Assembly (NCBI GenBank): GCA_963575745.1
Contig: CAUYUJ010000709.1
Coordinates: 46,296 to 110,295, forward strand
From: Prorocentrum cordatum
Lineage: Eukaryota; Sar; Dinophyceae; Prorocentrales; Prorocentraceae
Direction: 5' to 3'
Length of the DNA stretch: 64,000 nucleotides
A program made the translations under genes and the position numbers. The notes beneath the pieces were generated by a model that saw only the letters and a list, made by a program, of their open reading frames with translations, did no database searches and was not told where the DNA came from. Shown one piece after another: positions 7,455 to 59,203 of the stretch. Every line of letters starts with the position of its first letter. The first letter of the stretch is position 1.

Positions 7455-7486
7455 CAGCGCCCTGGATTACTCTTAGCTTCCAGCAA

Positions 7487-7535
7487 CTCGAACCGGCGGT
7501 AAACCGTGAACCTGGTCACCGCCGGGAACCTCTTC
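7487..7535 (-). mobile_element. Solo hairpin fragment
   Basis: 'gaaccggcggtaaaccgtgaacctggtcaccgcc...' with one stem mismatch (GGTAA against TCACC), then a broken 'gaacctc'. It is followed by an HR-B tail piece, 'actagctctccagcgccccggaa' (7,536-7,561). Confidence 0.45.
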
Positions 7536-7561
7536 CTAACTAGCTCTCCAGCGCCCCGGAA

Positions 7562-22025: not shown

Positions 22026-22052
22026 GGTCTCTGTCGCAGCCCTACCGCCCCG

Positions 22053-31332: not shown

Positions 31333-31346
31333 CTTGTATGCGTCCA
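31333..31346 (-). repeat. Decayed extra copy of the large-element terminus
   Basis: 'cttgtatgcgtcca' directly precedes 'cttggtagcgtcca'. It is a 14-bp tandem near-duplicate of the terminus, like that at 12,458. Confidence 0.5.
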
Positions 31347-31860
31347 CTTGGTAGCGTCCAAAACCCGGATAGCAAAGAGGAACTCACACAAACGAGCACA
31401 CGCACATAAGCACGCACACACGAACACACACACACACATACAAACACATATACATACACAAGAACGCACACATACGCCAGCATGTTCCACACACACACAC
31501 ACGCACACACACACACACACGCACACACTCACACACACACACACGCACACGCAACACATCCACGCGCAAAGGGCGACACACACGCGCAAACGCGCACACA
31601 CGAACACACAGCACATCTCACATACACACAGGGACGCGCACACGCACACGGATCACACAAGCACTTAGACACACGGGGGCACACACAAACACCCACACGC
31701 ACACACGCACACACACACACACACGCGCACGCACAACCCACGCACACAGACGCACACGCAAGCATCCATGGAAACCTACGCACTGACGACCACACGATGA
31801 CGCACGCACCGCAGCCAACTCGGCCCCCCCCCCCCGCGCTCCCCTGCCGCTCCCACGCAC

Positions 31861-31958
31861 CCCCGCCCTCCCCGCCGGCGCTCCGGAGGGGGGAGGCACC
31901 GCCCCCTTTTGGGGCCGGCCCTCCCTCCGCTCCAACCACTCCGCCCTCGCGGAGCGCC
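31861..31958. repeat. GC-rich 98-bp module, copy 1a
   Basis: Starts 'ccccgccctccccgccggcg', contains CTCCGGAG and GGGCCGGCCC palindromes, and ends 'ccgccctcgcggagcgcc'. Embedded in the CA domain. Confidence 0.8.
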
Positions 31959-32660
31959 AGAGGGAGGGGAGGGGGGAGGGGTAGGGGGCGCGCGGACGGC
32001 GGCAGCACCGCGCGCACGCACGCGCACACGCACATGCGCAGACGAACAACGAACAGGATGGCAAAGAGGATATCACACTAGCAAGCACACGCACACACAC
32101 ACACAGACTAGCACACAAGAGCACACACGTACGCCAGCATGCTCCACACACATGCGCACATACACACATGCACACACACGCACACACACACAAAGGTCCA
32201 CACACACACGCGCAAACGCGCACACGCAAACACACATATATACACAAGAACCCACACAGACACACAGTCACATGCAGCCACACATGCAGCCTGACAGACA
32301 CACAGACACATGCAGCCACAAATCTGACACACAGCTTGAGGAGCTTGAGGACATGCAGCCACACAGACACACAGACATAAACACACGCAAACGATTACAC
32401 ACACACGCACACACACGCGCGAGCACCCAGACACGCACGCGCACACGCACACACGGTCGCGCACACACACACACACATACGAGACACGCGCGAGCCCCCC
32501 CCCACCACCACCACCACAAACACACACACACAAGCGCACACACAGACGCAATCGCGAACACCCGCGGCTAACCACGCACAGACGACAACGCGGTGACAGA
32601 CCCATTCCCCGACTAAGCAGCGCACTCTACCCCCGCGCCCCCCAGCCGCCCCCATGCGCC

Positions 32661-32757
32661 ACCGCCCTCCCCGCCGGCGCTCCGGAGGGGGGAGGCACCG
32701 CCCCATGTTGGGGCCGGCCCTCCCTCCACTCCAGCCACTCCGCCCTCGCGGAGCGCC
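32661..32757. repeat. GC-rich 98-bp module, copy 1b
   Basis: Same module, one base shorter, with 'ccccatgttggggcc' in the centre. Confidence 0.8.
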
Positions 32758-33032
32758 GAAGAGATGGGGGGGGAGTAGGGGGAAGGGGGCGGCGGGGGTG
32801 CCAGCGCCGTGCTCGCACACAGACACACACACACACGCACACACAAGGATGCACGTTTCCTCAGGAAGCGCGCCGCGTCGCAGGCGCGAGCGCGGGTCTC
32901 AAGTGCACACGCGGACATTCACGCGCACACTAAGACACACAGACACACATACACACACACACACGAATACACACACGCACGCCCGCACACTCAATGAGGG
33001 ACGCCCTGGCAAGCGGCCATGGAGGGGCGATC

Positions 33033-34189
33033 TCATCCCAACCTGTGTGGATCAGAGCGGGGTAGGTCTACGCCTGTCCTGTCTGTCACGCGGCCCCGTT
33101 CGCCCTCTTCGCGTCGCCTGCGCGCGGTCTCCGCCTCCCTCGCCTGCTGCGCCTTCTCGTGAGCCTCCACGTCCGGAATCCCGATTGTGGCGTTGCGCGG
33201 GCGCGCTTGAGGGCGCGGCGGTTCGGTGGACGCCGTGCCAGCGCCGGCGCCCACACGAACGACAACGCCAGCCACAATCCTCGTCGTCGCCCCGCCTCCA
33301 CCGCCCTCTGACGGGGCCGAAGCCCCACAGTGCGCGCCAGCATCCCCAGCACCCTCGGACGCGGCGGCCTCTCGCGCACCCTCGAAGCCGCCCTGGGCGA
33401 ACACCTCTGGAGGCGCAGCCGCGGGCGAAGCCTCGGGCAGGGTCCCCGCCGCTGGAACCACCGGCGCAGAAACAGCGCCCGACGCACTGCGCGCCGCTCG
33501 CTCCTGGAACTCCTTCAACTTTGCCTCCGGGATTGCCCCGTCCACGCGCCCTTGCCACCCCTTTGCCCCTTGCTGGCCGAAGTGCCTCTTGCAGAACACG
33601 CCGCATCCCTCCGCGGGGAAACTGCGGCACTGCGCACCCACTCCATCCCCCCAAGTACGAGCCAAACATTTCCTTTCATCGATCATCTTCGGCGTAAAGC
33701 GATGCCACTCGCGGTCGGCAGGTGGCGCCCCCACGCCTGGCTCGACCGCGGCAGGAGCCGGGCCCGCGGACGGGACGCCCGAGGCCCTGCCAGCGTCGTC
33801 GTCCTCGCCGCCCGTGCTGCCCAGAGCAGGCGGGGACTGCCCGCGCTTCTTGCCCCTGCGCAACGGCGGCTGCGGCTGCCCCGAAGCGCCGGGGTCCCCG
33901 TCGCCAGCGCCAGGATCCCCGCCACCCGCCCGACGCCGCTTGCCCGGTGGCTCGCCACCCGACGCCTGCTGCCCGGCGGGCGCACTCGGCGGCGCAGACG
34001 GCGCGGCCGACGTGCTGGAAGCAGCGCCGCCGCCGCCATCGCCGCTCCCCGCAGACCCCGCCGCGCGCCCGCCTGCATGCCCGAGAGGCGCAGTCGGCGG
34101 AGCCGGCGGCGCACCAGACGGTCCCGCACCAGCGCTGCCGCCGGCGCCCCCCGCATACCCCGCCGCCGCGCGCCCGCCGCCTCCGCCCC
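33033..34189 (-). CDS. C-terminal region after the USP domain, copy 1 (Cys/His module)
   Basis: Continues the frame of the USP His box. A long Ala/Gly/Pro-rich linker contains a basic patch (GKRRRAGGGD, LRRGKKRGQS), then a compact module CLARTW...QC...GCGVFCKRH...GRVDGAIPEAKL, then a second low-complexity stretch to the stop at 33,033. The Cys/His spacing suggests metal binding. I know this only as a motif that recurs in dinoflagellate proteins, without a function. Overlapping long frames on the other strand reflect the high GC content. Confidence 0.55.
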
Positions 34190-35326
34190 GCGGACCCGCC
34201 CTGCGCACATACGCAAACACATACGCGCCCATGTGCACCTGGTGGTTTCTGGCGATCTTCGCCCAAGTCTGGAGGTGGACAGTACTGTCGTCGAATTTGG
34301 CGTATTCGTTCACGCCCACGGATGCATACGCATAGTAGTGTCCGCTCGTCGCGCTTTCGCCCTGGTGCACCACGACCCCCGAGAAATCGTACTCGCACTC
34401 GGAATCCACAGGCCGCAGAATCTGAGGAAAGCGCACAGGGCGTCTGTCGTACACTCGCCTATCACCCGCTGCACGATCACGAAGAGCACGGGCGGCGACC
34501 GCTCCCAGCGATTGCCTGTATATACCCTGATGCCTTGACAGACCCCGGCCGCCGCCCTCTGAGCATCATCGAGGTGAGCGTGCGCCGGACATCCTTGCCC
34601 TGGCTCACCGACATGCCTTAATTCCAGCCGGATCATCTCCTCCAGATCGCACGGCCCCGGGTAGTCGGGGCCGAGCAATTCGGAAGGCACCACCTTGAGA
34701 AACGTCTTAATTTCCCCCTTGTCCGAACTTGCTGTGCACGCGGCGCATCGCCTCCGCTGCCGAAACGCAATGCCGCAGACGTGCTGCTGGAGCACACTGC
34801 GCTGCCCGTGAGCCCCCCCTGCGGTGCAAACGGTGTGTTCGGCCGCGGTAACGGCATGGAGGGCGGCCAGGAAGAACTCTGACGCGTCGCATTGCTTCGG
34901 TCTCCCTTGCTGATCGAATTCTGCAAATTCTCGCTCACCAAAGAGCCCCATGCGCGCGGCTATAGCGAGTGGCGCGACGGCGTCGACCCCCTGGACAGAG
35001 AGAGCCGCGGCCTGAGCTCCGAGCGCGCACGCCGCGCAAGAGTCTGCACCAGAGGGCACCGGCCGTGCTCGTGGAGAAGCCGACGGAAGGGAGCCAGGCG
35101 CAGCAGCACCTGCGCGACTGAGCTCACGAAGCAAGTATTGCCGAGGTTTGCGATGCCCACGCCAGAGCCGCGGCCGCTGTGCCACTGCAGCTCCCTGGTG
35201 ACCTCCTCCTGGGACACGCCGTAAGCTGCCATGCACAGATCCCGGTCCAGCGGGCGCAGCTCTGGCGGCTCTGCACCATCGCCAACAGTCGCCGCCGCGC
35301 GAAACATTTCCCCCCAAAGATCCCAC
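34190..35326 (-). pseudogene. Ubiquitin-specific protease (USP) domain, copy 1, frameshifted
   Basis: Cys box GIANLGNTCFVSSVAQVLL with the catalytic Cys codon at 35,131-35,133. QCDASEFFLAAL (34,860-34,900) matches the USP QDA(x)EF box. A C...CAAC knuckle follows, then SPPVLFVIVQRV. The His box HQGESATSGHYYAYA has its His at 34,338-34,340 and KFDD just after it. These are the defining boxes of peptidase family C19, which removes ubiquitin from proteins. The Cys box is in one open frame (34,960-36,135) with the end of the PIF1 helicase, so the protease is fused to the transposase. Two frame changes fall inside the domain, at about 35,050 and about 34,440. Confidence 0.75.
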
Positions 35327-38300
35327 GGCACGACGGTGCCCCTACCGGCGCCGCGGCCGGCACCCCCGCGCCCACGCCCCCGCGAAGCAGCGCTCCCAGT
35401 GGACGGTGCCGCCGCCGCATCTGCGGTCGCCGTCGCGTCGCCGCCGCGGCCGCGGCCCCTGCCCCGCCCCGCAGGCCCTGCGTCGGGCGCAATGTATGCC
35501 GGTGGCACCGTCAGAGCCTGGCCCGGGCGCAGCGCGTGCGTGGGCAGAGGCGTCTGCACAGACGCCGCAGGGGCCACCTCCCCGTCCGAAGGCGCTGATC
35601 CAGTGGCGTCGTCGTCGTCGTCGTCGTCGCCCACCTCGTCACCGACGCCCGCTGAGCTCCCCACGGCGCGAGGCGGGCCTGGCGGCGTCGCCCGAGGCAC
35701 CGTCGGCGGCGCGGGCGCCGAGCTCGACTCCGGGTTGCCCCGTCCCGCGGGCCCATCCCCCACGTCCCAGCCGTACTCCTGCGCCCTCAGCTTGGCGATT
35801 TCGTAACTCGCTTTGAAAATCCTGCTTTCGAAGCGTTGTACCCCCTCGCGGACGTACTGGGGCGGGCCCCGCTGCAGGATTTCCCAGGGCGGCAGGTTGT
35901 AGACGAGGACGCGATGGGCCACGCGAACGCGACTGAGCATGACGTACAGGTGCAGCCACCAGTCATCGGCGCCCATGTTCATGGGCTTCTGGAGCACCAT
36001 GTGGCCGCATCCATGCCCAAGCCCTGCGCCGTCTGCACGGTGCGAACTTTCTCTGGCAGCAACGGGATCTGGTACCTCGTAACCTTCACCTTCCGAAGCT
36101 TTCGCTCGCCATCGTCTTCGTAGTGATGGTTCCACTCCCAGGACGCCCTGTGCGGCGCGATCTGCACGACCCCTGCTCCGAACCCTAGGTCCTCCGTGAA
36201 GTCATCAAACTTGACGAGGACACCGCGAGGCAAACGCTTGCATCGATAATAACCGAGCCTGTGGGCGTCGTGTGTCTTCTTTTCGCGCCAATCCGCGCCC
36301 GGCGTCTCGAACTCTCGCGGGTGGAACCGCACGTCCTTGACTACCCCCACGGCGTCCTGGACGATCTGGTGCTTCGCCGACAACTTCACGGTCAGCCGCA
36401 CACGCATGCCGATGTACAGCGGGCACATGCCGATGAGGTGACCAGTGTTGTTCACGTTCGGCTCCTGCAGCATGGCCTTGTAATGCTCCTCACCGAAGGC
36501 CGTGGGGGCTGGGGGCAAGTCCACGGCCTGTACGTACAGCAGCATCTGCCCCTTCTCCCTGGCCTCTCGCTCGGCCCGATACTGCATCTGCCTGTGCACG
36601 GCCTCCCAGGCGATGCCCATCTCGAACCCGTCTTTGACAGCGGGGTCCTGCAGCCGCTTGTCGTTCTTACCGGGTCGGACCACCCACCCTTGCACCACCC
36701 TTTTCTGCTCGGCCGTGAACTTCTTGCCCTCCCTCATGGTCTTCAAGAACCCCGGCATGAAAGGGCAGGGCGCGTGCGGAGTTACGAGCCTGTCCTTGAA
36801 GCGGTGCGTCTCGTACAGAAACATCGCGTGGGTCACGCCGTCCAAGAATATCGACTGCCCATTGCGGACGTGAACCCACTGGTCGGGTGCCTCACGCTGC
36901 AGCAGGGAAGACCTCTTGCCTTTGCCGCTCACAGGGCCCAGCTGATAAAAGTCACCCAGGAACATGACAATCGGAGCCTTCCCGAACATGTGTCACCGCT
37001 CCATGTACAGGTCCACGTCGCAATTGTGCGTCGCCTTACGGGCTTTGCACATGCGAAACGATGCAGCGCCGAGAAGCGCAGGCGGCACCATGGACACCTC
37101 CTCCACGATGACGGCCTTGAGAGCGTTCATGCGGTCCACGAAATCATCCTCGACTTTCTGCACGGAGAGCCTAGCGATGGTCAAGGCCTGCTGCCCGCTC
37201 AGCCCGAAGCCGCTGTGGATCGTCTCCCCCCCGATGACGCGCGCAGCGCTGTTCGACGAGGCCACGGCGATCTCCGATCCCTTGCCGAACACCTCGGCGA
37301 ACACACGCCGCAGCAGTTTCACCACCTCCGTCTTCCCCGTCCCGCCCTCCCCGTGCAACAGGAGAGCCATCTGCTCCACCGGCTTGGGGCTTTTTCCGCT
37401 GCGCAGATCTTCCTCGTATGCCACGATGGCCTCCACCTGGCCCACGACCAGGGCGACCACCGCCTTCTGATCCTTATTGAACGTCACCGGGTTGTCCGCC
37501 CTGGTCGCCCACTCGTCCAACAGCCTCTGCGCGATGTCGCGCGCCCGCGGCGGCCGCTTCTCGTCGCCGGCAACCGCGGGCGCCGGCGGCCGACCAGGCA
37601 CGAGCGCGGCAGGCGCCGAACCCGCGAGGCCGCCCCCCCCGTCGCCATACCCAGGCAAGCCCTCAGCTCCCTTCTTCCTGTATCGGAACGCCTCCTTCTG
37701 CTGTGCTTTGCCTTCCTCGAACTGAGAGTCGCCCAAGTCGAGACCACCGAATCCGGTCTGCCTTCCAGTACTCGCGGCAGCAGGCTGCGGCTTATGGTCT
37801 CTCGCATAACCCTCAAGGAAGATGTTCTTATTGACCAGGCTTTGTGACGACCCACGAATTTGCTCCAACTGGGCCACCGCGGGCACCTCGCTATCCGGCA
37901 CGGCGAACCTGGCCTTCTGTCGGTGCGCCGCCCACGCTTCGTCCGCCTCGCCCTCGTCCACCTCCTCAGCAAAACCGTCGAAGGCTCCGCCACCGGCGCC
38001 CGACCCCTCCTCCTCGTCCGCCTCCCCGGCAGGCCGATTCTCCGCTGGCTGCAGCTCAGAGTACACAAAGTCCTTGGCCTCCGGACGAGTCTTGATTCGC
38101 GGCCGCCCTTTCGCCTCCGTCTCCACGTCGAGGTTCGTCGCGACCTGGACGGTCCAGCGCGCCATGAACTCGGCGGCGCTGGGGCGCTGTGCAAAATGGC
38201 CCGGGCCCTCCTCGGAGCCGCGATCCAGATCGATGTCCTCGATCGTGAACCCCTTTCCAGCTCGCCGCTCGCAAAGCTCGTACTGCCTGGACAACGCCAC

Positions 38301-38645
38301 CTGCTTCGCCCACCACTCCTCCCAGGCAGGCTTATGCTTCCCGGACGCGTCGACACCGGCCCTGTAGGGCGCCCAGGCTGCCGCCCCCTTCTCAGCCGGC
38401 TGCATCGGGCGAAAAATCACCGACTTGAACAGCGCGTTCACCTCTTCCTCTTTCTCCTTCGAAGGCATCGCGAAGCCGAAGAACTTGGGCACCCTGAACG
38501 GCGCGCCGACGCGGAGCGTCTGCACTCGGGAGGCGGCGGCCGGGTGCGAGTCCGCGAACGCGTACGTCTCGAAGTCCTGCGCGTCGAAGTGGAGCGGGTT
38601 GGCCTGAGCTGTGTACACGTACATGGCGTAATGGTACATGCCATG
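35327..38645 (-). pseudogene. PIF1-family helicase domain, copy 1, broken
   Basis: Walker A GEGGTGKTEVV at about 37,321-37,353, VIVEEVSMV as Walker B, GDFYQLGPVSG, TAQGLGMDAAT and LHLYVMLSRVRVAHR appear in PIF1 order (superfamily 1B, 5'-3' helicase). A stop TGA at 36,990-36,992 replaces the glycine codon found in copy 2. One G is missing at about 36,001 and one C at about 38,650, compared with copy 2. An acidic/proline-rich linker with (GAC)n coding for Asp leads to the USP domain. Confidence 0.8.
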
Positions 38646-40515
38646 GACTTCAGGGGCTCCCTGTCGCCGCGATGCAGCCAGTCCATCTTCATGTCGTGCT
38701 CCTGCCGTGCCCGGTATTCGACGGCCTGCTGCTGCTGCTCCTGCTCGGGCTGGCCCTCCCCAGCAGCACCGGCACCCGCGCCCTCCCCGACGACGCCGTT
38801 GACGACCTCGGCGCGAAGCGTTGCGCGCCCCTCGCCAAGCGCATCCATGATACCGCCCCCCCCCTCGCCGTCCTCTTCTCCCGCGGCCGGCTGGTCCACC
38901 TCGATGTCCTCTGCGCGGGGGTCGGTCCAGAAGTCGTCCCTTTTCTCGTGAACGGCGTGGCTTGCCTGGAACGCCAGCGCCACGATCCCCTTGCAATACA
39001 GACTCCAGGTGTCATGGGAGCAGTAGCACTCGTGGCCATACTGCATCTGAAACATCATCTCGGGCAACTTCTTCAGGAGCGCCCGGTGCGAGCTGGTCGT
39101 GAGCTTGATGATTGTTCGCCTGGCAGTGTCGAGCACTCCGCCCCAGCCGCTGCGACGAGCGACAGCAGCGGCCCGGGCCCCGTCGACGTCCTCCTTGCCC
39201 TCCTCCTCCGCCGCCTCATCCGCCTCCCGCTCCGCCCTCTGCTGGAGTCGGAGCCACTCCAACCCGGTGCTCTGCGCGTGCAGCACTCCGAGGTCTCCCG
39301 CGATCGGCCCCGCCTTGGTCGCGTAGTCCGTCTGGTAGTGCGCCATATTGATGGCGTCCATGAACACGGCCTCCAGGGAGTGCAAAACGTGCTCCCGCAG
39401 GCTGCCCGGCGGACCGCTGCCGCTCGCGCCAGCAGCTGAGGCGGAGGCGGCGGGCGAGGCAGGCGCGCGCGATGCAGGGCCGCCAGAGGCCGCGCGCGAT
39501 GCGGCGCGGCCCGGCGCCCGCGACCTCGGCTCTGTCTCGACGGCTGATTCTGCCAGCTCGCGCTCCGCGCGCAGGTCGCTGTAGTAGCCCAGGCCCTGCT
39601 CCCCCTTTTTGAACACGAACCCGGGTCGGCTGCCGTCGTAACAGGAAGCCGCGCAGAAGCTCGCGGTGTCCTCGCCCTGTGGATCTGCCGGCCCGACTGC
39701 CTGCTTTACGCCGCTTTGTTCCGGCGTCGGCGGAGGCGGCGGACCCAGGTCATACGCATCGACCAAATCGAACACATCTTCATCGCCCCCACCCATGTCC
39801 CAGTTGTCCCCCGCGTCGGGATCGTCCATCGTGGTGGTCGGCGCCCCGCCGAGCAAGCCGCCTCCCCTGGGCAGGCCGAGGCGGCGGCCCACGGGCAGGC
39901 GCGCCCCCCCGCCGCAGGCGCGCGCACCGACCCCTCGCCCGCTCCGCCCACGCCCTGAGTTGCGGCCGACACCCCTGATTCCGTGGAACCTCCGCTCTGC
40001 CCGGCGCCCTCGTCGCAACCGGTGCCGCCAGTCTCGGCCCCAGCCAGCGCCTCCGACGCGGCGCCGACCGGCTCGGCGAACGCACCAGGCTCCGGAGGCG
40101 GCGGCACGGCCGGGTCGACGTCGGCCGCGGACGCGCCCCCGACGCTGTCGTCGCCGGGCAGGTCGAGCTCCACGCGGTCCAGACACTGGACGTCCAGGTT
40201 GCTCCGCAGACACACCTGGCCCACAGGATTCGTGCTCCCGTGGCACGGGTGGTACCGCACCACGTCGACGCGACCAGCTCTGCCGTACCGGTTGCAGCGG
40301 TGCGCCCACGGGCCGTAGCCTTCAGCCGGAACGTCGCCCAGATCCAGGCGCTCGCCAGGCGGGTTCCACTGCCCCTCCTCCAACGGGCCGCACGCGTACT
40401 GAACCTTCGCACCATCCGGAAGCACCAAATCCTTCCCCTTGCGCAGGCGCCGCCAGACGAGAGAGGCGGCCGGGCGCTTCCTGGACGGGTGGCTGTACAC
40501 CGCAGTCTCGTACTC
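38642..40515 (-). pseudogene. Helitron Rep C-terminal part with two-tyrosine motif, copy 1
   Basis: Begins HEYETAVYSHPSRKRP in the same frame as the upstream Rep segment, after a TAA at 40,516-40,518. VDVVRYHP...QVCLRSNLDVQCLDRV corresponds to the Helitron segment usually reading VVPYNP...HINVE. HYQTDYATK holds the two catalytic tyrosines in YxxxYxxK spacing (codons 39,335-39,337 and 39,323-39,325). ECYCSHDTWSLYCKG follows. A frame change lies in the Ala/Gly-rich linker near 39,900-40,000. Confidence 0.75.
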
Positions 40516-40518
40516 GTG

Positions 40519-43105
40519 TTAGAAGCCAAGCCGGCACACCTTGCAGTGCTGAGGCACATCGTCGTTCGTCTTGTGCTTCCAGCACGTGGGACCGCACCTG
40601 TGCAGGTGGCCACGGATGATACACTTTCGCGCGTCCCGCGCGAAGCAGCCCGCCCAGGTGCGCGCCTCCTCGTCCGGGCGGTCCGCAAAGTGCATGGCCG
40701 CGGTGCCGCCCGCGCGCTCGCGGTACGCAGGCTTGCGGCGGTACTGCGGCTGCAGCGTCACGTGCGCACCCGTGAGAGGCTCGCCAAAGACCGCCGGGTA
40801 CTGTGCCCGCTGATCATGGGGATCGGGCTCTGGATCTGCACACGGCGCGAACGGGCGCTGCCGGCGCGGACCCTCAATTGCGGGCTGCTCCTGCAGCATC
40901 GCTCTCTCCTCTCCGAGATCGATCTTCATCATGGCCGCAACCTCGTTCCGCAGCTCTTCTGTGGACAATTTCTTGTCATCACGGACAGAGCGGCGCCCCG
41001 CGTCGTACTCCGGCTTGAGAAGCTTCCCGAGCTGACGGCGCGAAGCGCCAGCGATCGTATGGGACTGCAAGGAGAGGTCGTCCTCCTCCAGCTTCCCGTC
41101 CGCGAACGCGAGACGTCGATCCCGCGGGGCGAGCGGAAGCGGCGGCAGCCACTCCCGCCCGCCCCGCCCGTCCAAGCCCAGCTGCCGGCCCACCTCCTCC
41201 GCCGCGTCGAACTGCACGCTGCCGACCCGGGCGAGCACGGCCTCCCTCCACTTCCTCAGACGCCCCTCGAGGCCTTCGACGTCCCCCGAGCGCAGCTTCG
41301 CAAGGAACGCGCCAGTCATCGGGTGCAGGCGCCACAGGTGGATGTGCGGATGGATGCCGCCGCGCCCCTGCGACTCCACGGGGCCGAAGTACGCGCGGAC
41401 GAGCCCGAACGCTCCACACGCCCCCGTGGCGGCCACGCCGTCGGAGACGCCCGCGGCCCCGCGCTGCGGCGTGACGCCGACGACATGCTCCAGGAACAGT
41501 TCCAGCATGAGGTTCGTGACCATGGCCTGCGACACCGGGTCTGCGGCCACCCGCTGCAGCATCTCCCGCGTCGAGGGCATCACGGGAGAGGTCTCCTCCA
41601 GCAGCCGCCATTGCTGCACGGAGGCGCCCTCGTACATCAGGGACACCATCATATTCCGAGTGTCCGCGATGTTCGGCGTCGTGAACACCAGGGGCGGACC
41701 AAAGAGCCGGGTGTAGCTGGTACTGATGTGCCGCAGCGTGGTCCGGTGCGCGTCGGAGCCGACGACATCGCGGTTGCTGAGCAGCATGCTGCGCAGCGCG
41801 CTCTTGACGTTCCGGGGCAAGCCCTCGTGGCCCAGGGCCTGCTTCAGGCCCGCCCCCCTGCCGAGCTCGGCCACGACCAGCGCCAGATCCTCCGGCGTCA
41901 AAGCGGCCAGGTCCGCGATGCTTTCCCCGAGGCGGTGCTTGCGCACGAATAACCTGGCCGACTGAATGCTTGCCTTTCTGCGCCAGAGGCAATACTGGGC
42001 CGTGAGCAGGTCTGCGTGGCGACGCCAGCGCGGCACGGGCGACTCAGACGCGGCGGGCGCCTTCGCAGCGTCGGGCGCGGGCGCCCGCGCAGCGTCGGGC
42101 GCCGAGACGTCGTCGGGGACCACGTACTCGAGCTCCACGCGAGCCATGAGGCACCGGCACCACTCGTCGTACGTCAACTTTGCGTCCCTCTCGAGTCCGA
42201 AGACGCCGTCCCCATACGGAAACGCGACAGGGTCGAAGGCGCTCCAGCAGCCGGGCGAGAACATGCTGACAGGCTCGGTTCCAGTGGGCACGACGACCCG
42301 CACCGCGCGCCTCGCCCCCCCGGCCTCGGCGCCCCCGGCCGGCGCGCCGCCGCCGCCGCCGCCGCCGGCCGCGCGCTTCCCGGCAACTCCTGGAGGAGGC
42401 CGCGTGGCCTGAATCTTCTGCTCCGTCTGCTCCAACTTCTTTGTGAGCGCCTCCTTCTTGCAGTTGGTGAGCAACTTCGCAGCCTTGCGGGCCTCTTCCG
42501 TGGCCTCCGCCAAGCGCCGGTCGAGATCTCGGTCCTGGAAATTCTCCATGCCGTCGACCTGCCGCGTTTCTGCCTCCGCGCGCTGCTTCTCGCGCGCAAT
42601 CTCCTCCGCCCTCTGGAGGCTGAGGTGCACATTCGCCCACTGCTTGTCCAGATCGGACATAATGTCGGCGTCCGCGACGGCGGCGCAGTACTCGCCTTCT
42701 TCGACACCCTCGCCGCCCTCTCCCTCGCCAGCCTCGCCCTCGTCGCCCTCTGCATCCTCCCCACCAGCGCCCGTAGCGTCCTCACCGCTGGCCCCTGCCT
42801 CGCCCTCTGCCTCGCCCCCGCCGTCTGCCGCCGCGTTCGCGTCGCCCTCCGCGCTCGCAGCGCCTGCACTCGTCCGCTTCGGCGGGGCCGAGCCCACGCC
42901 GGGCTGCACGGCATCGGCCGGGCCCTCCTGGCGAGCGTCGCCACCCTCACCCACCACGGCCACGCACGCCGCGAGACAGCGAGGCAGGCCCAGGAGCGAG
43001 GAGCCGTCGCCATCGCCGTCGCCCTCGGGGTCCGCAAAGTTTCGCGCTGCCTCTTCGTCCACCGCACTGCGGCGTACTGCTCGTTCGTGTCGCGGAGGTA
43101 ATCGT
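40519..43105 (-). CDS. Helitron Rep (HUH nuclease) segment, copy 1
   Basis: The acidic N-part (EGDGDGDG, EGEAGEGEGGEGVEEGEYC) leads to a coiled-coil stretch and then the Rep core: FTTPNIADTRNMMVSLMYEG, then GGIHPHIHLWRL with the HUH histidines at 41,338-41,346. The segment ends with a Cys/His-rich stretch (CIIRGHLHRCGPTCWKHKTN, then HCKVCRLGF) and TAA at 40,516-40,518. Rep nicks and joins single DNA strands in rolling-circle transposition. One C is missing at about 43,064 compared with copy 2, so the first residues (DYLRDTNEQYAAVRW) are in another frame. Confidence 0.8.
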
Positions 43106-43132
43106 AAAAAAAAACAAAAAAAAAAAAACTAA

Positions 43133-43167
<35 letters not shown>

Positions 43168-43209
43168 AACAAAAAAAATAAAAAAAAAAAAAATGAAAAA
43201 AAAAAAAAA

Positions 43210-43253
<44 letters not shown>

Positions 43254-43257
43254 CAAA

Positions 43258-43322
<65 letters not shown>

Positions 43323-43345
43323 AAAAAGAATAAAAAAAAAAAAAA

Positions 43346-43388
<43 letters not shown>

Positions 43389-43427
43389 AAAAAAAAAAAA
43401 AAAAAAAAAAAAAAACAAAAAAAAAAA

Positions 43428-43463
<36 letters not shown>
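43106..43463. repeat. 358-bp A-rich tract inside the transposase gene
   Basis: Almost pure A with scattered C, G and T. Copy 2 reads 'gtactcgtaagcgcgcttg' here and copy 1 reads 'gtaatcgta', then the tract, then 'gcgcgcttg'. It therefore replaces a two-A step and adds 356 bp without removing neighbours. It encodes poly-Phe on the coding strand and shifts the frame. No target duplication is visible. Confidence 0.85.
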
Positions 43464-43464
<1 letters not shown>

Positions 43465-46400
43465 CGCGCTTGAAATCGTCGAGGGGCACGCCGAGCTCCT
43501 CCAACCGCGCCTTCTGCAGGGTGGCGGGATCGGAACCCGCGAAGTCAATCTGCACAAACTCGACAAGATCGCTCTCCCGCGGCGGCAGCGACAGCACCTG
43601 CCGACCGCCGTCCGCCTGCGGGAACGCCACGAAGTTCCCCACGTACGCCTTGATCTGCTGGTCGATTGGAGCCCACTGGCCAGCATCGGCCTTGCAGTTG
43701 AACCGCCGCACGATGCCCCGCGCGATGGGCAGCAGAAGCTTCGCGCCCAGCGTGAGGTTCCGCAGCGGCGGTGGCAGCCGACCGATCCAGAGATCGTTGG
43801 CCAGCGCGCAGGGCGGCATCGTGGGCAACCTCTTGGAGAGCGCGCCGTGACACCCTGCGCAGATGGGCACCCTCTGCTTCGCGTCGGCCACGAGCACCCC
43901 GTCTGACTCGCGCCTGTCAATATTGAAGCACTTCTTGTGCAAGAGCCACAGCTTCCCGTCTGGGCCAGGGTCGCGCACTGCGGACGCCTCCAGCTCCTCG
44001 AGGGGGATGCCGCCCGGGCGCTCGACGCCGTTGGGGCCCTCGCGCACGAAGCGCCACCGGGCGTGGTACCGTGCCGGGTCCCGCAGCGCGTGGGCGCGCT
44101 GCCGCTGCGTCAGGCGCATGGCCTGCGCCTGCGCGCCCGCGGCCTCGGATGCCTCTCCCCTCGCCGCCTCGAGCTCGGCGCGCGCGGGCGGCTTCGGCAC
44201 CTCGTCGCAGAGCAGCGAACGCTCCCCGGCGCCGTCTGGCTGCTGCCAGAAGTGCACGCGGCGCAGCTCGTCCGCCCAGTGGAGACGAGCGCAGACGCAG
44301 CAGTCGACCCTCGAGCGCACGGCGCGGCGACTCTGCCCGGGCTCGGGCCCCTCGGCGTCCGACGCCGCCGGAGCAGCGCCCAGCGCGTCCATGTCCACGG
44401 GCGGCATGTCCACGCCCGCGGGCGGCACGGACCCGTCCGCGCCTGGCGGCTTCCACCAGGCGCGCGGCGCGTCCGGCGCGGCAGCGGCGGCGGCGGCCTC
44501 CCCCGAATCGGCGGGCGCTGCGCAGGCCGGCCAGTCGTGAGACCCCGTGACGAGGTGCTCAGAGAAAGCCTCCACGCACTGCCGCCACTCCTGGGGCCTC
44601 ACGGGCCGCACGTCGTCGTCCTGCTGGGGCCACTGCTCGGCCAGGTAGAACAGGCGCTTCCTGTACTCCGGCCACCCGTGGTGCTTTTCGTCCACGTGCT
44701 TTCTGAAGCCGGCATGCGTGGCGAAGTTCTTGTCGCAAAGGCGGCACGGGAACGGCGGGAGAGCCTCCGGGGCCTCTTTAACCGCCCGCAGAGGGCCGCG
44801 CTCGTCACACGGGAGAGCCACATACTTGGGCTGGAGCCTGGGCACGCGCGCCTTGCGAGCGGCAGCGATGGCCGGGGTCGGCGCGGGCGGGGCGCCGCCG
44901 GCCTGCGTCTCGCGCGTCCGCGCCTCCTTCACGGCCATGTCGTACCGTTCCGGGCACTCGCGGGTCAGGGAGCTGTGGCCCTTGTCCGGGTCCCACAGCC
45001 CGAGAGTTCGCTGCTCGGGTCTGCCATGGCTCCCACAGAACTGCCCTTCGCCTTTGCAAGGAGTCCGGCACTGCGCGAGCAAGGACACGCAACGGTGCTG
45101 GCGCCAGACGCGCGCGCGGCACCTGCCAGCGACGCACGGCGCGGGGTCCAGGAGCCACGCCGGCAGGGTGCCCTCCTCGCTCACGTGGGGGTCATCCAGA
45201 GCCACGTTCACCTCCACGTCCCCTGCCTTCACTGTCTTCCCTCTGAGACGCTCCTCCTCTTCCTTCCGCAGCCGCTCCTGCCGCAACCGCTCCAAGTCCC
45301 TTCTCGCCGCCCCGCGAGTCCGCGGCCCTGGCCCCTCGGGAGCTGGCCTCTTGGGTCCGCCGCCGAGCAGCCGACCCGCGCCCCCGCCCGCGCCCCCGTC
45401 GCCGTCGCCGCCCGCGCCACCGTCGCCCGGCCCCTGCGCACCAGAGCCCGACCCCGACGCTGGTCCACCGTTCGCACCGCTGCCCGAAGAAGACCCGCCG
45501 CCGCCGCCGCCGCCGCCCCCGGAAGAGTCGTCGCCGCCGGCCCCTCCCCCCACCACCTCCTCCCCGCACCCCGCCAGACGCAGCCATTCGGTGCATGTCC
45601 GGTCCAACCAGATGCGCACGAATTCCTGCGAATACTTCTGCGCCACACTTGCAACACCCCGCGCGAGCTTCGCTTCCTTGAAATCGGGCCCCCCGCGCCG
45701 ATCGGCGAACGCGTCCGGCCAGACACCGCCGTGACGGGCACGGAAATCGTCGAGGGCAATCAGAGCGCGCCTGTCCGTGTCTGTAAGCGCCGCGCCCTTC
45801 TCCACCGCGGCGAGCAACGCGGGATCCCTCTCGAGCGCAGCAAGCAAGCGCTGCTGGTCCAGGTCCCAGTGCCCCGCGGCGAGGTTCCACGTCAAGCCCA
45901 CGCCCGCCCGCTCCCGGCGCACGAAAGCCGCCACCTGCCGCGCCGCCTGAGGCTTCAGCTTGAGGAGCTGCTGCCAGACTGGCCACTCGGGGATCGCCTG
46001 CGGCTTCAGGTCCGCCAAGTACCCGGGCGGCTTCAGGTCGCCACTCGGGGGCCGCCGCGCGCCCTCGGCGGCCTCCACCCTGTACATAATGTCGCGGTCA
46101 CCCTCGAGCTGCTGCAAGCGCGCAGCCAGGGCGTCGCCCATGAGAGCGACGCCGCCGCGCGCGCGGCACCAGGCCCGCAACAGCCAGAGCTCCGCGGGCA
46201 CGTCGCCCGGCTCGCCCGTGTAGTAGCCGCGCCGCCCCTGGGGGGACGTGTCGGCGGCGAAGCCCGACTCCACGGCCTCGGAGAAGAACGCACCGCCAGG
46301 GCCGGCCCACGCTTTCGGGATACCGAAGACGCGCGGCCAGGGCGCCAGCCTGCTCCCGTCGGGCCCCGCGCGCTGGTACCAGGGCTCCAGAGCGCGTCGC

Positions 46401-48727
46401 TGGTCGAGCTGCACGCTCGCTTCGCAGTTGTCCTGGTGGAAGCACTCGTCCTCCAGCAGCAGACCACGGAACTCAGCGAATCCGTTCTCCCCCCTCGCCG
46501 CGCACTGGGCCGCCTGCTTTCGCCGCATGGCGCGGGCGCGCTCCGCTTCCACCGCCTCGCGCTTCGCCGCCAAACTGGGCAGCTTCTTCTTCGACGCGAA
46601 ACGCAGCCTCTCACACCACGCAGTGACCTCCTCGTCGCTCATCTCGTCGCCTCCACCCCGCTCGCGCTCGAATTCCTGCTGGCACTTGTAGCAGAGGAAA
46701 TCGGAGGGCAGGCGCAGGAGCACGCTGCCGTGCACCGGGGCGCCAGGAGCGCCGTCCAGCCGCGCCTGCTCTGCGTGCCGCGCCTGGCGCGTCGCCTCGC
46801 GCATCTCCCCAGGCCTCCAGACCTCTCCCTCGGCGGCGTCCAGCGACGGCAGCAGCGGCGCGCGGACAGGCCCCGGCTTGCCGTCGTCGCGGAGCGGCGC
46901 GCGCCAGCGCAGCGGCTCGCGACGGCAGCAGACCCAGACCTCGCGCTCCACGCCCTCCTGCTCGAGCCGTTGGAGCAGGCGCTGCCACTGCTCCCAGGGC
47001 TCCCGCGCGTCCGAATTGGGCACGGGCGCGCGGCGCAGCAGCTCGGGGTCGGCCTTGCGCAGGCGCCGGATCGCCTGCGACCGCGCCACGTTGTCCTGCG
47101 CCGTGGCCGCGTCGAGCCCCAGGGCGACGTCCCGCAGCCGCTCCAGCTCCGCCACCTGCCGCTGCAGCTCCGCGTCCGGGGCCTCCCCCGCGAAGAACCT
47201 GGGCAAGACAGGCACCCACGACAGCATGCAGGTCGCCAGAACGTACCGCACGAAATCCTCGTGCTCCTCGCCGACGCCCGCGGGCAGCTCCTCCTCGTCC
47301 GCCATGCCCCGGGGCTCTTCGTCCGCGTCCGCCATCTCTGCGTCTCCCTCCTCCTGCTCTCGTCGCTCGTCGTCGCCCTCCTGCTGCTCCTGCTTCTCCT
47401 GCTCCTGCTCCTCCTCGTCCTCCAGCTCCTCTTCCTCCTGCTCCTCTCCTTCCTCCTCCTCATCCTCCTCTCCGAGCGCCTCGCGGCGCGGATCTTCGGC
47501 CGCCGGGGCAGCCAAGGCTTCGCGGACCCGCCTGTCTTTGGCCAGGGCAGCGAAGACGTCGAGCCCGAGCGCAGCGCCCTGCAGCGCGTCCACGTACGAC
47601 AGCTGGGCGCCCACGAGCGCGGTCTTCACCCGACGAGCCAGCGCCCTGTCTGCCCTCTGAAACCTGGCGAACATATCCTGCGTGACCTCCGCGCGCCGCT
47701 CCTCCGCGAGGCAGTCGGCCGGGTCCGGCTCTTCCTGCTCCTCCTCGCCCTCTTCCCCGCAGGCCTCCTCCTCCTCGGCCGCGCGCTGCAGCAGCTCCTG
47801 CCGGTGCGCCTCGAGCGCCCGCGCCTCCGCCTCCCTGCTCTCGGCGTCGCGGCGCGCGGCTGCCGCCTGCGCGTACTTCTGCCGCTGCGCGTCGAAGGTC
47901 GCGGGCGCGTTGAAGGACGCCGCGCGGCCCTTCCGCTCGTGGTTCGCGATGAAGTTCGCCAGCCTGCGCTCCTCGTCATCCTCCGCCTTCTCCACCGGCA
48001 TCCTCTGGTTCTTCTCGCACCACGCCTCCAGCGCCTGGACCTGAATGAGATCCGCGCCCAGCGCCGCCTCCAGCTGCGCGCGCCAATGCTCGTCGAGGCC
48101 CTCGACGCCACGCGCTCGGACGTGCTCCACCCAACGCGCGAGCAGATGCTCCCGCGGATCGTCGTCGTGACCGAAGCGCTGCGGCCCTCGCCGGTGCCTC
48201 TCGACGAACGCCTTCACCTCGAGCACGCGCTCCCGCGCCGTCCGCCGCTGCCACGCGCGCCTGTTCACCAGCTTATCGAACCTCTCCTGGTTGTCATCAT
48301 CCAGCTCGTACTGCCCTTCGGTGACATTATTGATCCACCGCGCGAGCTTCTTCTCCTCCTCGTCCGCCGCCTTCTGCTTCGGCAGCTCGTCGAGAACGTC
48401 CACGTGCTCCGCGATGCGGTCCAGCATCGCGCGGGCGCGCGCGCGCCTCTCCTCCCGCCGGTTCTCGAGCCCGTCGAACCGCGCGCGCCGCTCGGGCGTC
48501 AACGGGAAATGCCCCTTGCTCACGTTGTGCACCCATGTCCCAAGGGCGGACTCCTTCTGCGCTGGAAGCCGGCCGTGCTGCTCCACGTGCCTCGCCAATT
48601 CGCGAAGCAGCTCCTCGGAATGGTCCCGCGATCGCGCCTCCGCGCCAGCATGCTGCTCATATCGATGCCCAGGTGCGCCGCGAGGCCCTGTACACCTTGC
48701 TGTCCAATCGCTTGCGCTCCGAGCCAA
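43464..48727 (-). CDS. N-terminal part of the large transposase, copy 1: HA-like repeats, zinc finger, DUF6570-like
   Basis: About 1,755 residues open before the poly(A) tract; the frame opens with TTG, so the true start is unknown. Residues 35-340 hold three or four repeats like helicase-associated domains (GRLPAQKESALGTWVHNVSK; LPKQKAADEEEKKLARWINN; MPVEKAEDDEERRLANFIAN). A Glu-rich tract lies near 420-460, a Cys module (CRARVW...QCRTPC...FCGSH) near 1,200, and a C2H2 finger (CRLCDKNFATHAGFRKH) near 1,330. Paired CxxC sites follow. The segment CAGCHGALSKRLPTMPPCAL continuing NDLWIGRLPPPLRNLTLGA matches the DUF6570 signature found at Helitron transposase N-termini. Copy 2 enters the window just after this point. 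Confidence 0.7.
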
Positions 48728-50288
48728 CCCAGCGCCACGAAGACGGCACCCCAGTCTCGCGATCGCCCCGCAATCGCGCAGCCAACTTTTCCAATTCAGC
48801 GAAACTCATCCGCGCCAACACCTCCGCGTCCACACCGTCGCGCGCGCCCCCGCGAGCGCCCTGCACCCCTCCGGCACCCTGCTCCACGGCGCTTCGGCGC
48901 CCCGCCTCGCAGCGCGCCACGCCCCGCACCCGCGCGCGGCGACCGCGAAACCGAACTCGAACGCCGTGAGCGACGACGCGACACCAGGGCGCGCTCTCGG
49001 CTTCCCCCCACTCCACGTCACCAGAACCCACCGACTCCTCCACCGCGCACACGTGGCCGCCGTCGAGCCACAGCAGAGCACCAGCGCAGAAGCCCGCCGC
49101 GTGCCCCAGCGCCCACGTCACACGCCTTCCTTCCTGTGCTTCGAACGCTTCCGCAGACTCCGCAGAGAACACCCACAAGTGCAGGCAGCGGGAGCGCAAG
49201 TGCTGGACGACGACCTCAAAATTCCAGCGCTCCACCAGCGACCCGCAGGCGCCCGAACCCTCGTGGTTCTGACACACGCGACCGAAATGCCCCGCGGCGT
49301 CGCCCCCCACGAGCTCAGCCACTGCGCTCTGCAGACACTACCCACGCCACTCGACGGGAGAACTCCCGCGCGCGCGGCGGTTCCCCCGCCCGCGTCCGCC
49401 GCGCGGCCGTGGGCGCGGTGGGCGAGCGGCACCGAATGCACCAACAGACATGGGCACGGCGCCGTCCTGCGTCGCCCCGCTGAACCCCGCCGGACACGCT
49501 CCGAGAGCGATCATGGCGCAGGCAGCGCGCACGGCCAGGTCCCCGACGAAAACCTTGGACTCCCGCGCAGCCTGGCACTTCGCCCCGCCGATGCCGACGC
49601 CCGGCGAGAACCGGCGCGCACAGACGCGGCGGCCGCCGCACGTCCGTGCCGAGAGCCCGTAGAGCACGCAGCAGAACCACCTGACGACCGCGACTGCACG
49701 ATCGGCCAGCCCGGGCGCGTCCGGGAGCTCCCGCGCGAACACATCCCGCTGCCGCCACCAGCGCGCCGCCGCGACCTTCCTCGTCATCACCACTCTGCTG
49801 TCTTCTTGTGGCGGGCACACGCCGAGAGCGACGAAAACGCAGGCTGCGCGCAGGGCCGCGTCGCCCACGGTCCACGACGACGCGTCGGGCGCGGCCTCGG
49901 CAGCGGCGCGGAGAGCGCGCGCCGGCGGCTGCTCCGGGTCGTCGGCACGTGCCGCGCGCGCGGTCAGGAACTGCTCCACGCGCCCGTTCTTGCAAGCCGC
50001 CCCCCGCGAGCTGCGCCCAGACGAAGCCCGCTCTGGCGACGCGTCGCGCAACAGCGGGCGCGGCACGACGGGGAGCAGCACACGGGTAGCAAGCTGCTCG
50101 TTCCGCTCGACCGCCGCCTCCGTCTGCCGCGCCCACTCCGCCTCCCGCCGCGCGCGCCGAGACCGCCGGCACGACGCTCGGCACGCTTTCCGGACCGATT
50201 TCTGCTCGCGCTCCGCCGCCTCCAGCGCGGTATCATCGACGACCTCCTCGTGGATCACGTCGTGCTCTGCGAGCAAACACTCCTGCAC
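48657..50288 (-). pseudogene. OTU-like cysteine protease region, copy 1, with in-frame TAG
   Basis: One frame interrupted only by TAG at 49,338-49,340. The first part has two similar segments (VGDAALRAACVFVALGVCPP and VGDLAVRAACAMIALGACPA). Just after the stop comes CLQSAVAELVGG, then WNFEVVVQHLRSRCLHLWVF and ALLWLDGGHVCAVEE. This order resembles the OTU protease pattern (DGNCLFRAV, a strand-helix pair, then the catalytic His). The stop falls on the residue before the putative catalytic Cys. OTU domains are known from Helentron-type Helitrons. The match is weak and made by eye. Confidence 0.4.
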
Positions 50289-51007: not shown

Positions 51008-51371
51008 GGAAAACTACGCCTTCAACACAGCGCGCCGGGCAGACTTGGTAGCGCCCAAAACCCGGATAGCAAAGAGGCACTTACATAAACGAGCATACGC
51101 ACATAAGCACGCACAAACGAACACACACATACAAACACATATACATACACAAGAACGCACACATACGCCAGCATGCTCCACACACACACCACCCATACAC
51201 ACACACGCACACGCAACACATCAACACGCAAACGTCGACACACACGCGCAAACACGCACGCACAAACACACAGCACATCTCACACACACACACAGAGGGA
51301 CGCGCACACGCACACCAATCACACATGCACATACACACACGGGGGCACACAAACACTCACACGCACACACG

Positions 51372-51403
<32 letters not shown>

Positions 51404-51546
51404 CACACACACGCACGTACAACCCACGCACACAGACGCAAACGCAAGCATCCAGGGAAACCCACGCACTGACGACCACACGATGACGCACGCACCGCAG
51501 CCGCCTCAGCGCCCCCCCCCGCGCTCCCCTGCCGCCCCCACGCGCC

Positions 51547-51643
51547 CCCGCCCTCCCCGCCGGCGCTCCGGAGGAGGGAGGCACCGCCCCATTTTGGGGC
51601 CGGCCCTCCCTCCGCTCCAACCACTCCGCCCTCGCGGAGCGCC
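51547..51643. repeat. GC-rich 98-bp module, copy 2a
   Basis: Same module as in copy 1, with 'ggaggagggaggcaccgcc' and an intact 'attttggggccggccc' centre. A G-run (about 51,643-51,672) follows. Confidence 0.8.
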
Positions 51644-52165
51644 GGGGGGGGGAGGGGGGAGGGGGGAGGGGGGGCGCGCGGACGGCGGCGCCACACCGCG
51701 CGCGCACGCGCACACGCACATGCGCAGACGAACACAGACGCAGGATAGCAAACAGGCAGTCACACAAGCAAGCACACGCACATAGGCACGCACACACGGA
51801 GACACACAGACTAATACACAAGAGTACACACGTACGCCAGCATGTTCCACACACATGCGCACATACACACACACACACATACACACACACGCACACACAC
51901 ATCCACACGCGAACGTCCACACACACGCGCAAACGCGAACACACAAACACACATACATACACAAGGACACACATACGCCAGCATGCTCCACACACACACG
52001 CACAAATACACACACACGCACACAGACACACATCCACACGCAAAGGTCTACACACACGCGCAAACGCGCACACACAAACACACAACATATCACACACACA
52101 CACACACGGACACGCACACGCACGCGGATCACAAGAGTACATACACACACGGGGGGCACGCGGCG

Positions 52166-52263
52166 CCCCCGCCCTCCCCGCCGGCGCTCCAGAGGGGGGA
52201 GGCACCGCCCCATTCTGTGGCCCGCCCTTCCTCCACTCCAACCACTCCGCCCTCGCGGAGCGC
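52166..52263. repeat. GC-rich 98-bp module, copy 2b
   Basis: The most diverged module: 'gctccagagggg' and 'cattctgtggcccgccc' break both internal palindromes. Confidence 0.75.
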
Positions 52264-52772
52264 CCGAGGGGGGCGAGGGGGGAGGAGGGGGCGCGCGGAC
52301 GGCGGCACATGCGCAGACGAACACAGACGCAGGATAGCAAAGAACCAATCACACACGCAAGCACACGCGCATAAGCACGCTCACGCGTACACACACGGAC
52401 AAACTCAAATCCATACATACACAAGAGCACGCACGTACGCCAGCATGCTCCACACACACTCACACATACACACATACACACACGAGCGCACACACGTCCA
52501 CACGCAAACGCACACACACTCACACACACACGCGCATGTGCACCCAGACACACGCAGGGGCACACACACACATACGAGACACACGCGCCCCCCCCCCACC
52601 CACCCACCCACCCACCCCCACACACACACATACACACACACGCACAAGCGCACACACAGACGCAATGGCGAACACCCACGGATAACCACGCACAGACGAC
52701 AACGTGGTGACAGACTCATTCCCCGACTGGTCAGCGCACTCTTCCACCGCGCCCAAAAGACCCCCCCACGCG

Positions 52773-52871
52773 CCCCCGCCCTCCCCGCCGGCGCTCCGGA
52801 GGGGGGAGGCACCGCCCCATTTTGGGGCCGGCCCTCCCTCCACTCCAGCCACTCCGCCCTCGCGGAGCGCC
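52773..52871. repeat. GC-rich 98-bp module, copy 2c
   Basis: Palindromes CTCCGGAG and GGGCCGGCCC are intact. It is preceded by 'ccccgactggtcagcgcact', like module 1b ('ccccgactaagcagcgcact'). Confidence 0.8.
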
Positions 52872-53229
52872 GGGGAGAGGGGTGGAGGGGGAGAGGGGGG
52901 GGCAGGAAGGGGCGGGGGTGCCAGCGCCATGCGCCCACACACACACACACGCACGCACACGGGCACACACGCACTTTTCCTCAGGGAGCGCGCAGTGTCG
53001 CACACGTACGCAAGCATGCTCCACACACACGCACACACACGCACAACCACACGCAAAGGTCGACACCCACGCGCAAACGCGCAAACACAAACACACAACA
53101 CATATCACACACACACACACCGCGGACACACACACAAACACGCAAACACACCAGACACGCACAAACACACTGACACACACACAGATACACACACACACGC
53201 TCGAGCACACTCACATCCACACGCGCCCA

Positions 53230-53261
<32 letters not shown>

Positions 53262-53662
53262 CGAACAGACACGCGCACAAAAAGAGATACAAACAGAGAT
53301 GCATACAGACACACAGACAAACACACACACATACCCACGGACACACATACAGACACACAGACAGACACACAAACAGAGCCACAAACACACAGACACAAAG
53401 ACACCCACACACACACTTACACACACACGCCAGCAGACACACAGGCAAACACAAACACACGCCAGCGCACACACACTCACGCACTGACAAAACATCCTCA
53501 TGCACACAGCCACACAAGAACACACATGCAAGACGGACGCGCCTACAGGGCGCCCGTGCCAACCTCCAGTGGCAGCCCAAGCGCCCGGTGCGCTTGAACG
53601 GCAGAGCTCTGTCAACGGCACACCCAGGGCCGGCAAGCGCCGCTGCACACGAGGCGCAGCTC

Positions 53663-59129: not shown

Positions 59130-59203
59130 CTGCTTCGCCCACCACTCCTCCCAGGCAGGCCGATGCTTCCCGGACGCGTCGACGCCGGCCCTGTAGGGCG
59201 CCA

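Follow-up and report, generated by a model that had tools for sequence, protein, structure and literature searches.

Two copies of a Helitron-like element in the window

The 64-kb window analyzed here, which is the whole stretch from position 46,296 to 110,295 of contig CAUYUJ010000709.1 of the dinoflagellate Prorocentrum cordatum, carries on its minus strand two decayed, head-to-tail copies of one Helitron-like element that align at 89.7% identity over 6.2 kb and 91.1% over 3.4 kb. With the frame chosen segment by segment, the element reads as an N-terminal part with DUF6570, a Rep with HUH and two-tyrosine motifs, a PIF1 helicase, a low-complexity linker, a ubiquitin-specific protease (USP, family C19) and a cysteine-rich tail (Table 1). 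The initial annotation had placed the element at positions 34190 to 38645; the element is real, but its actual size is far larger, copy 1 running from 31346 to at least 48805, with a 5' region that extends past the latter position to about 50.7 to 51.0 kb. The central claim of that annotation, an open frame in copy 1 leading from the end of the helicase into the Cys box of the USP, was borne out: frame 34963-36201(-) is open for 413 aa and contains the helicase motif LHLYVMLSRVR, with IANLGNTCF about 255 residues downstream. Copy 2 had been described as showing the same order with all C19 boxes present, and it does, except that the USP boxes are divided between two frames by a frameshift and that an additional frameshift lies in the helicase-USP linker.

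Table 1. Features of the two copies and other features mentioned in the text (window coordinates unless a contig is named)
Feature	Position	Strand	Basis or remark
Copy 1	31346..48805	-	3' terminus to start of open N-terminal frame; shared 3' break-point and frames
DUF6570, copy 1	43493..43822	-	PF20209, E=4e-13; within 1952-aa frame 42950-48805
TTC/GAA-type low-complexity insert, copy 1	43068..43469	-	Reads as poly-Phe; none seen in copy 2
Rep (Helitron_like_N), copy 1	41341..41859	-	PF14214, E=4.9e-12, 46.9 bits (cut-off 28.9), in frame 40522-43128(-); ends at HUH motif HPHIH
Two-tyrosine motif of Rep, copy 1	39314..39343	-	AHYQTDYATK, read in frame
PIF1-type helicase, copy 1	35923..37367	-	PF05970, E=1.2e-8, frame 36996-39011(-); from Pfam match start (37367) to motif VI
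Helicase motif VI, copy 1	35923-35955	-	LHLYVMLSRVR, read in frame 34963-36201
Helicase-USP linker, copy 1	35161..35922	-	Acidic, then RG-rich; one open frame (34963-36201)
USP (C19), copy 1	34209..35160	-	Cys box 35068-35160, His/Asp box 34209-34403, frameshift between; PF00443, E=5.7e-5 and 3.8e-8
Cysteine-rich (Zn-type) C-terminal module, copy 1	33500..33710 (approximate)	-	60.6% identical to copy 2
Copy 2	51043..64000	-	3' terminus 51043; 5' part outside the window
Rep frame, copy 2	59902..62535	-	HPHIH present; 93.7% identical to copy 1 Rep over 189 aa
PIF1 helicase, copy 2	57729..58193	-	PF05970, E=9.2e-14, frame 56187-59219(-)
USP, copy 2	55032..56002	-	Cys part 55292-56002, His/Asp part 55032-55226, frameshift between; PF00443, E=2.6e-9 and 1e-8
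Second-lineage element L016	Contig C3162 (G000), 944-9700	+	Distant Helitron lineage, USP C-terminal to helicase; single 2,919-aa frame
Satellite arrays	4859-31065		Several arrays of a ~177-bp satellite
Reverse transcriptase frame	18306-22052	-	1,249 aa; RVT_1, 1.5e-13
Canonical-type Helitron helicase frame L035	Contig C13859 (G000), 1969-5181	+	C-terminal end of ~200 residues

Copy 1 (34454-34457) and copy 2 (55277-55280) are shifted by one base at the same point of the USP, a frameshift found in none of the 19 genome copies compared. The two copies belong to different subfamilies despite this common frameshift, which could be a systematic assembly error or the outcome of gene conversion within the tandem pair.

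The profile searches that had been proposed as a check returned significant matches to C19, PIF1 and Helitron_like_N in the window and to C19/UCH in the relatives as well. Within the window, the Pfam UCH profile matched two frames of copy 2 (55136-56356(-), E=2.6e-9; 54501-55286(-), E=1e-8) and one of copy 1 (33036-34565(-), E=3.8e-8); the short Cys-box piece in frame 34963-36201(-) scored 23.3 bits (E=5.7e-5), slightly below the cut-off of 23.9, and the profile did not match the copy 1 piece 34313-35341(-). In sequence searches of the PDB, USP36 was the top match both for the copy 2 USP piece (3.2e-5) and for the relative P0006 (E=1.8e-13), the latter with the Cys, His and Asp/Asn positions aligned. 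A USP structure was predicted for another relative, P0001, from an 11-row alignment (mean predicted local distance difference test score [pLDDT], 66.7; predicted template modeling score, 0.73). With this model, Foldseek returned 255 PDB matches at E<=0.001, the best at 9e-14 to USP30, and the best 50 of the 255 were, by title, all USP structures or deubiquitinase-containing complexes. The UCH domain, the Cys, His and Asp boxes, all of them in place, and the modeled fold together support the assignment of the domain as a USP. Neither an OTU nor a herpes tegument-like (VTD) domain appeared in the Pfam tables of the window and relative proteins scanned.

The fusion lies in a single frame across many copies and distant relatives

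The genome from which the window comes comprises 4.13 Gb in 21,875 contigs. A UCH search that scored 146 of its 1,164 first-look candidates gave 147 matches, a lower bound that includes host USPs. Among the 147 matches listed, whatever their family, at least 38 lay in open frames of at least 3,000 aa and at least 9 in frames of at least 5,000 aa, the longest stop-to-stop frame reaching 6,383 codons; an identical score of 86.9 bits was counted by eye in 47 of the 147 rows. Twenty genome copies of 10 kb each were fetched, with a selection biased toward long frames, and 14 of them carried the Rep, the two-tyrosine region, the helicase and the USP in one uninterrupted frame, to which the second-lineage copy L016 adds one more by Pfam. 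These 14 copies and L016 have the fusion in one frame, so it is no chance product of decay. As an example, the single 3,332-aa frame of L014 matched DUF6570 (9.7e-17), Helitron_like_N (5.9e-10), PIF1 (3.5e-14) and UCH (1.7e-22).

Motif patterns gave a similar picture: all six strict patterns were present in the longest frame of 12 of the 20 copies, HPHIH together with AHYQTDY(A/T)TK in 14, the two-tyrosine pattern in 17 and both USP box patterns (Cys and His) also in 17. The initial annotation had allowed for the USP turning out to be a separate gene in other copies; with relaxed patterns, helicase motif VI and the USP Cys box shared a frame in 18 of the 20; one of these, L021, is interrupted by a stop codon in an upstream part of the helicase. 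L016, with PIF1 and UCH in one frame by Pfam, is the nineteenth such copy, and in L009 the linker is disrupted. Of the 14 single-frame copies, seven (L012 to L015, L020, L023 and L025) were 99.8 to 99.9% identical to one another, the other seven being less similar to them, and the spread of the element is therefore recent.

Three protein searches, in which only the 8,000, 8,000 and 7,998 candidates with the most shared words were scored, yielded eight relatives from other sources (P0001 to P0008). The USP sequence was continuous at the point where both window copies shift frame in P0001 (a EukProt record labeled Pyramimonas sp., with contamination possible), P0002 and P0003. P0002 has peptides at both ends that resemble a translated Illumina adapter, which we take to be an artifact of that public contig. 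P0006 (3,211 aa) contains DUF6570, Helitron_like_N, PIF1 and a complete USP (UCH, 9.2e-26) in one open reading frame (ORF), and P0007 (3,641 aa) keeps this arrangement up to a truncated USP, UCH being matched at 1.4e-6 over profile positions 1 to 140 of 254 and the ORF ending within the domain. PIF1 (6.2e-14) and UCH (9.9e-16) share one ORF in P0005 (1,613 aa), whereas P0004 (1,241 aa) matched UCH (7.8e-19) without a PIF1 Pfam match, yet is 64% identical to the helicase over 395 aa. P0008 (1,959 aa) combines Rep and helicase but has no UCH match. The cysteine-rich module of copy 1 has matches in P0004, P0005 and P0006 and is readable in P0003 too.

Identity to copy 2 dropped from copy 1 through P0005/P0004 and P0006 to P0007 in every common domain, P0005 and P0004 swapping rank. 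For the Rep, the values were 94% (copy 1), 68% (P0006) and 63% (P0007), with no match to the Rep query in P0005 or P0004; for the helicase, they were 88% (copy 1), 68 and 64% (P0005 and P0004), 55% (P0006) and 51% (P0007). The USP was 78% identical in copy 1, 46 and 48% in P0005 and P0004, 31% in P0006 and 30% in P0007, and the tail was 61% identical in copy 1, 57 and 51% in P0005 and P0004 and 43% in P0006, with none in P0007. This pattern fits one old fusion in the window-type lineage; the fusion is old because P0006 and P0007, at about 30 to 41% identity, still have all domains arranged alike in one ORF each. No relative was confirmed when viral contigs were scanned with the USP piece or when viral contigs and bacterial and archaeal genome contigs were scanned with alignment A3. 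An NCBIfam scan of P0006 and P0005 gave no match, and a PHROGs scan of P0006 found a Dda-like helicase only.

Ratios of nonsynonymous to synonymous substitution rates (dN/dS) were calculated for the USP, the helicase and the linker. In comparisons of L014 with L028, L019 and L017, the USP gave 0.44 in each case (limits 0.30 to 0.64), the helicase 0.34, 0.38 and 0.33 and the linker 0.62, 0.47 and 0.62. Between the two window copies, the corresponding values were 0.45 (0.31 to 0.67), 0.37 (0.28 to 0.49) and 0.61 (0.36 to 1.09), and three close pairs had too few USP changes to judge (nonsynonymous/synonymous, 2/5, 0/3 and 0/1). The comparisons with L014 and between the window copies indicate that the USP has been under purifying selection. 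Between L028 and L019, dS was 0.071 in the USP and 0.189 in the helicase, whereas between L014 and L028 the USP was the more diverged of the two; we read this as a probable swap of the USP module among subfamilies (L017, L018, L019 and L028).

Ends of the element and its place among rolling-circle transposons

In all five copies compared (the two in the window and three others), homology stopped at one 3' position beyond which the bases differed. This common break-point, at 31346 in copy 1 and 51043 in copy 2, looks like the true 3' terminus; the end sequence is ...GCTACCAAGT, not CTRR, and the first flanking base on this 3' side was T, G, G, G and C in the five copies. The 5' sides lie in variable repeats, and the 3' end of copy 2 adjoins repeats that, by eye, are like those 5' of other copies, in keeping with the head-to-tail arrangement. 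The 3' flank of copy 1 falls in the region of the satellite arrays (Table 1). Farther out, the 3' flanks of copy 1 and of the copies on contigs C15489 and C2034 resemble each other, and this resemblance between a flank in a satellite region and two others hints at an insertion preference.

The HUH motif, the two tyrosines and the occurrence of PIF1 with PF14214 in one frame (L014, P0006, P0007 and L016) support membership in the Helitrons in the broad sense. Canonical Helitrons have a 5' TC, a 3' CTRR with a palindrome and an A|T target (PMC4067079, excerpted text). What the present element shares with them is a PIF1 helicase linked to a Rep that has the HUH motif and two tyrosines, with Helitron_like_N above the curated cut-off, but its protein is far larger, with DUF6570, a USP and a cysteine-rich tail. 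Assignment to the canonical (Helitron1) type was rejected because the 3' end is not CTRR in any of the five copies, and assignment to the Helentrons because an AP endonuclease was not found: no endonuclease family was among the Pfam matches of P0005, P0006, L014 and L016, and P0007 ends within the USP. The element is therefore filed as Helitron-like, a rolling-circle Rep-helicase transposon that is neither a canonical Helitron nor a Helentron.

Deubiquitinases on such elements have precedents. Some Helitrons and Helentrons carry a VTD deubiquitinase domain inside the ORF of the RepHel protein, and VTD domains of zebrafish elements (DrT1, DrT2) react with ubiquitin probes; the authors propose that VTD domains may protect proteins required for transposition from being degraded, and they note that Helitrons can be served by different deubiquitinase classes (PMC9741609, excerpted text). 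Those systems are of the herpes tegument-like class, with a C-terminal AP endonuclease and animal hosts, according to the same excerpt, whereas the present element has a USP/C19 domain, no AP endonuclease among its Pfam matches and a dinoflagellate host. OTU-bearing Helentrons likewise place a cysteine protease of the ubiquitin system on a rolling-circle element, but as additional ORFs of the OTU class (PMC4067079, excerpted text), while here the USP is fused C-terminally to the helicase. Cellular USPs such as USP36, Ubp8 and USP28 share the Cys, His and Asp/Asn boxes and the USP fold; identity to the structural matches listed is 15 to 19%, and the present USP, unlike them, is part of a transposase. 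No earlier report of a USP in a Helitron was recognized in searches of the open-license PMC literature. The initial annotation, which knew of no USP/C19 domain joined to a Helitron helicase, was right about the class and had overlooked the VTD deubiquitinases in Helitron ORFs (PMC9741609, excerpted text): the USP is a third deubiquitinase class on rolling-circle elements, after OTU and VTD, and, as far as the literature searched shows, is new as a class, not as a deubiquitinase.

Proposed role of the protease

DNA nicking and joining is the established activity of HUH Rep proteins, DNA unwinding that of PIF1 helicases and ubiquitin removal that of USPs. In the reading that we favor, to which we give a probability of about 0.62, the two decayed Helitron-like copies descend from elements encoding a giant transposase that ends in a USP with complete active-site boxes and, in this lineage, a cysteine-rich module behind it: the Rep would nick and join DNA, the helicase would unwind it and the tethered USP would strip ubiquitin where transposition takes place. 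As substrates, the giant transposase itself and the surrounding proteins, which would be spared from proteasomal turnover, come first in likelihood, and ubiquitinated host repair, replication or chromatin proteins second. The sequence evidence thus suggests a transposon that removes ubiquitin tags to help itself move.

Several observations weigh against this reading. The frameshifts in the USPs of both window copies mean that neither can make the full protein, and the 20 fetched copies are not a random sample. The Cys box varies, being IADLGNTCF in copy 2, with an Asp at what we take to be the usual USP oxyanion Asn position, and NFDGHACF in P0001, whose USP model, given its mean pLDDT and 11 alignment rows, is of middling confidence. 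The USP dN/dS between L028 and L019 was 0.60, with neutrality within its limits (0.33 to 1.19; helicase, 0.36), and between L014 and L028 the dS of the USP (0.236) exceeded that of the helicase (0.144).

The same architecture could serve other ends. The main targets of the USP might be host proteins instead of the transposase, such as PCNA, histones, repair proteins of the FANCD2 type or silencing factors in ubiquitinated form, a possibility that we regard as rather unlikely. In its favor, Ubp8, a chromatin USP, and the FANCD2-bound USP1 are among the Foldseek matches, and the helicase would carry the protease to DNA, yet such generic USP matches are uninformative on the substrate and no pointer to one was found in the sequence. 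We find it less probable again that the long frame is a precursor from which the USP is released, or from which it is translated apart, as a free enzyme, by protease cleavage or trans-splicing in the linker. The long, low-complexity spacer before the USP would suit such a scheme, and trans-splicing of multigene transcripts is known for some dinoflagellate tandem genes (PMC11453091, excerpted text), but separate translation would not need the continuity of frame seen in 19 of the 20 fetched copies and in P0005, P0006 and P0007.

Gene-fragment capture by Helitrons is documented (PMC4289320, excerpted text), and the USP might on that precedent be a passively captured host fragment with no role. 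This is improbable for a domain that is in frame, keeps its catalytic boxes, has dN/dS below 1 in most comparisons and occupies the same place in relatives whose USPs are 30 to 48% identical and in a second lineage. The idea that separate USP and transposon genes merely look fused through assembly or frameshift artifacts, which the several frameshifts in the window copies might have encouraged, deserves almost no weight; it is refuted for the family by the same uninterrupted frame on many contigs and in records from other sources. In favoring a tethered USP that acts at the transposition site, we note that rolling-circle transposons are now seen with OTU, VTD and USP deubiquitinases, the role of these proteases being only suggested in the literature excerpts at hand. 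Whether a transposase needs deubiquitination becomes testable with a family this large and young that has its USP in frame, together with a second USP lineage, and dinoflagellate genomics gains a recently expanded, autonomous-looking element with giant stop-to-stop frames.

The second lineage is represented by L016, which matched DUF6570 (5.1e-9), Helitron_like_N (5.9e-12), PIF1 (2.2e-20) and UCH (1.3e-21). Its USP is no closer to the window type than to a host-type USP, scoring 49.7 bits to the host-type L001, 45.4 to the window-type L028 and 43.5 to P0006, and its Rep-helicase scored 57.8 bits to L035, 47.0 to P0006 and 40.8 to L014; P0008, which lacks a USP, scored 141 to 178 bits to L014 in its two best single stretches. 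The USP of L016 was probably acquired separately from the window-type USP, which is the simpler reading, a judgment made on small score differences and on one fetched member of the lineage. We tentatively suggest, at somewhat less than even odds, that a USP has been joined to a rolling-circle helicase at least twice independently in dinoflagellates, alongside the animal captures of OTU and VTD; ubiquitin removal in cis would in that case be a general requirement of eukaryotic rolling-circle transposition, reinvented again and again.

A Helitron_like_N search of the genome gave at least 151 matches, all scoring above the window type, which we read as other Helitron lineages; L035 is the one among them that was checked for a USP, and Pfam found no UCH in its helicase frame. 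This canonical-type Helitron helicase ORF ends in about 200 residues with the pattern QxGxTCGLHAxNH ... GGHW ... DS, for which no Pfam match and no PDB sequence match was found. The motif resembles that of a Josephin-like or other papain-fold cysteine protease, and a Helitron may here carry yet another class of protease. The same genome gave 28 matches to DVNP, against none in 14 control genomes, which identifies it as that of a dinoflagellate. Elsewhere in the window, the reverse transcriptase frame listed in Table 1 belongs to a separate retroelement.

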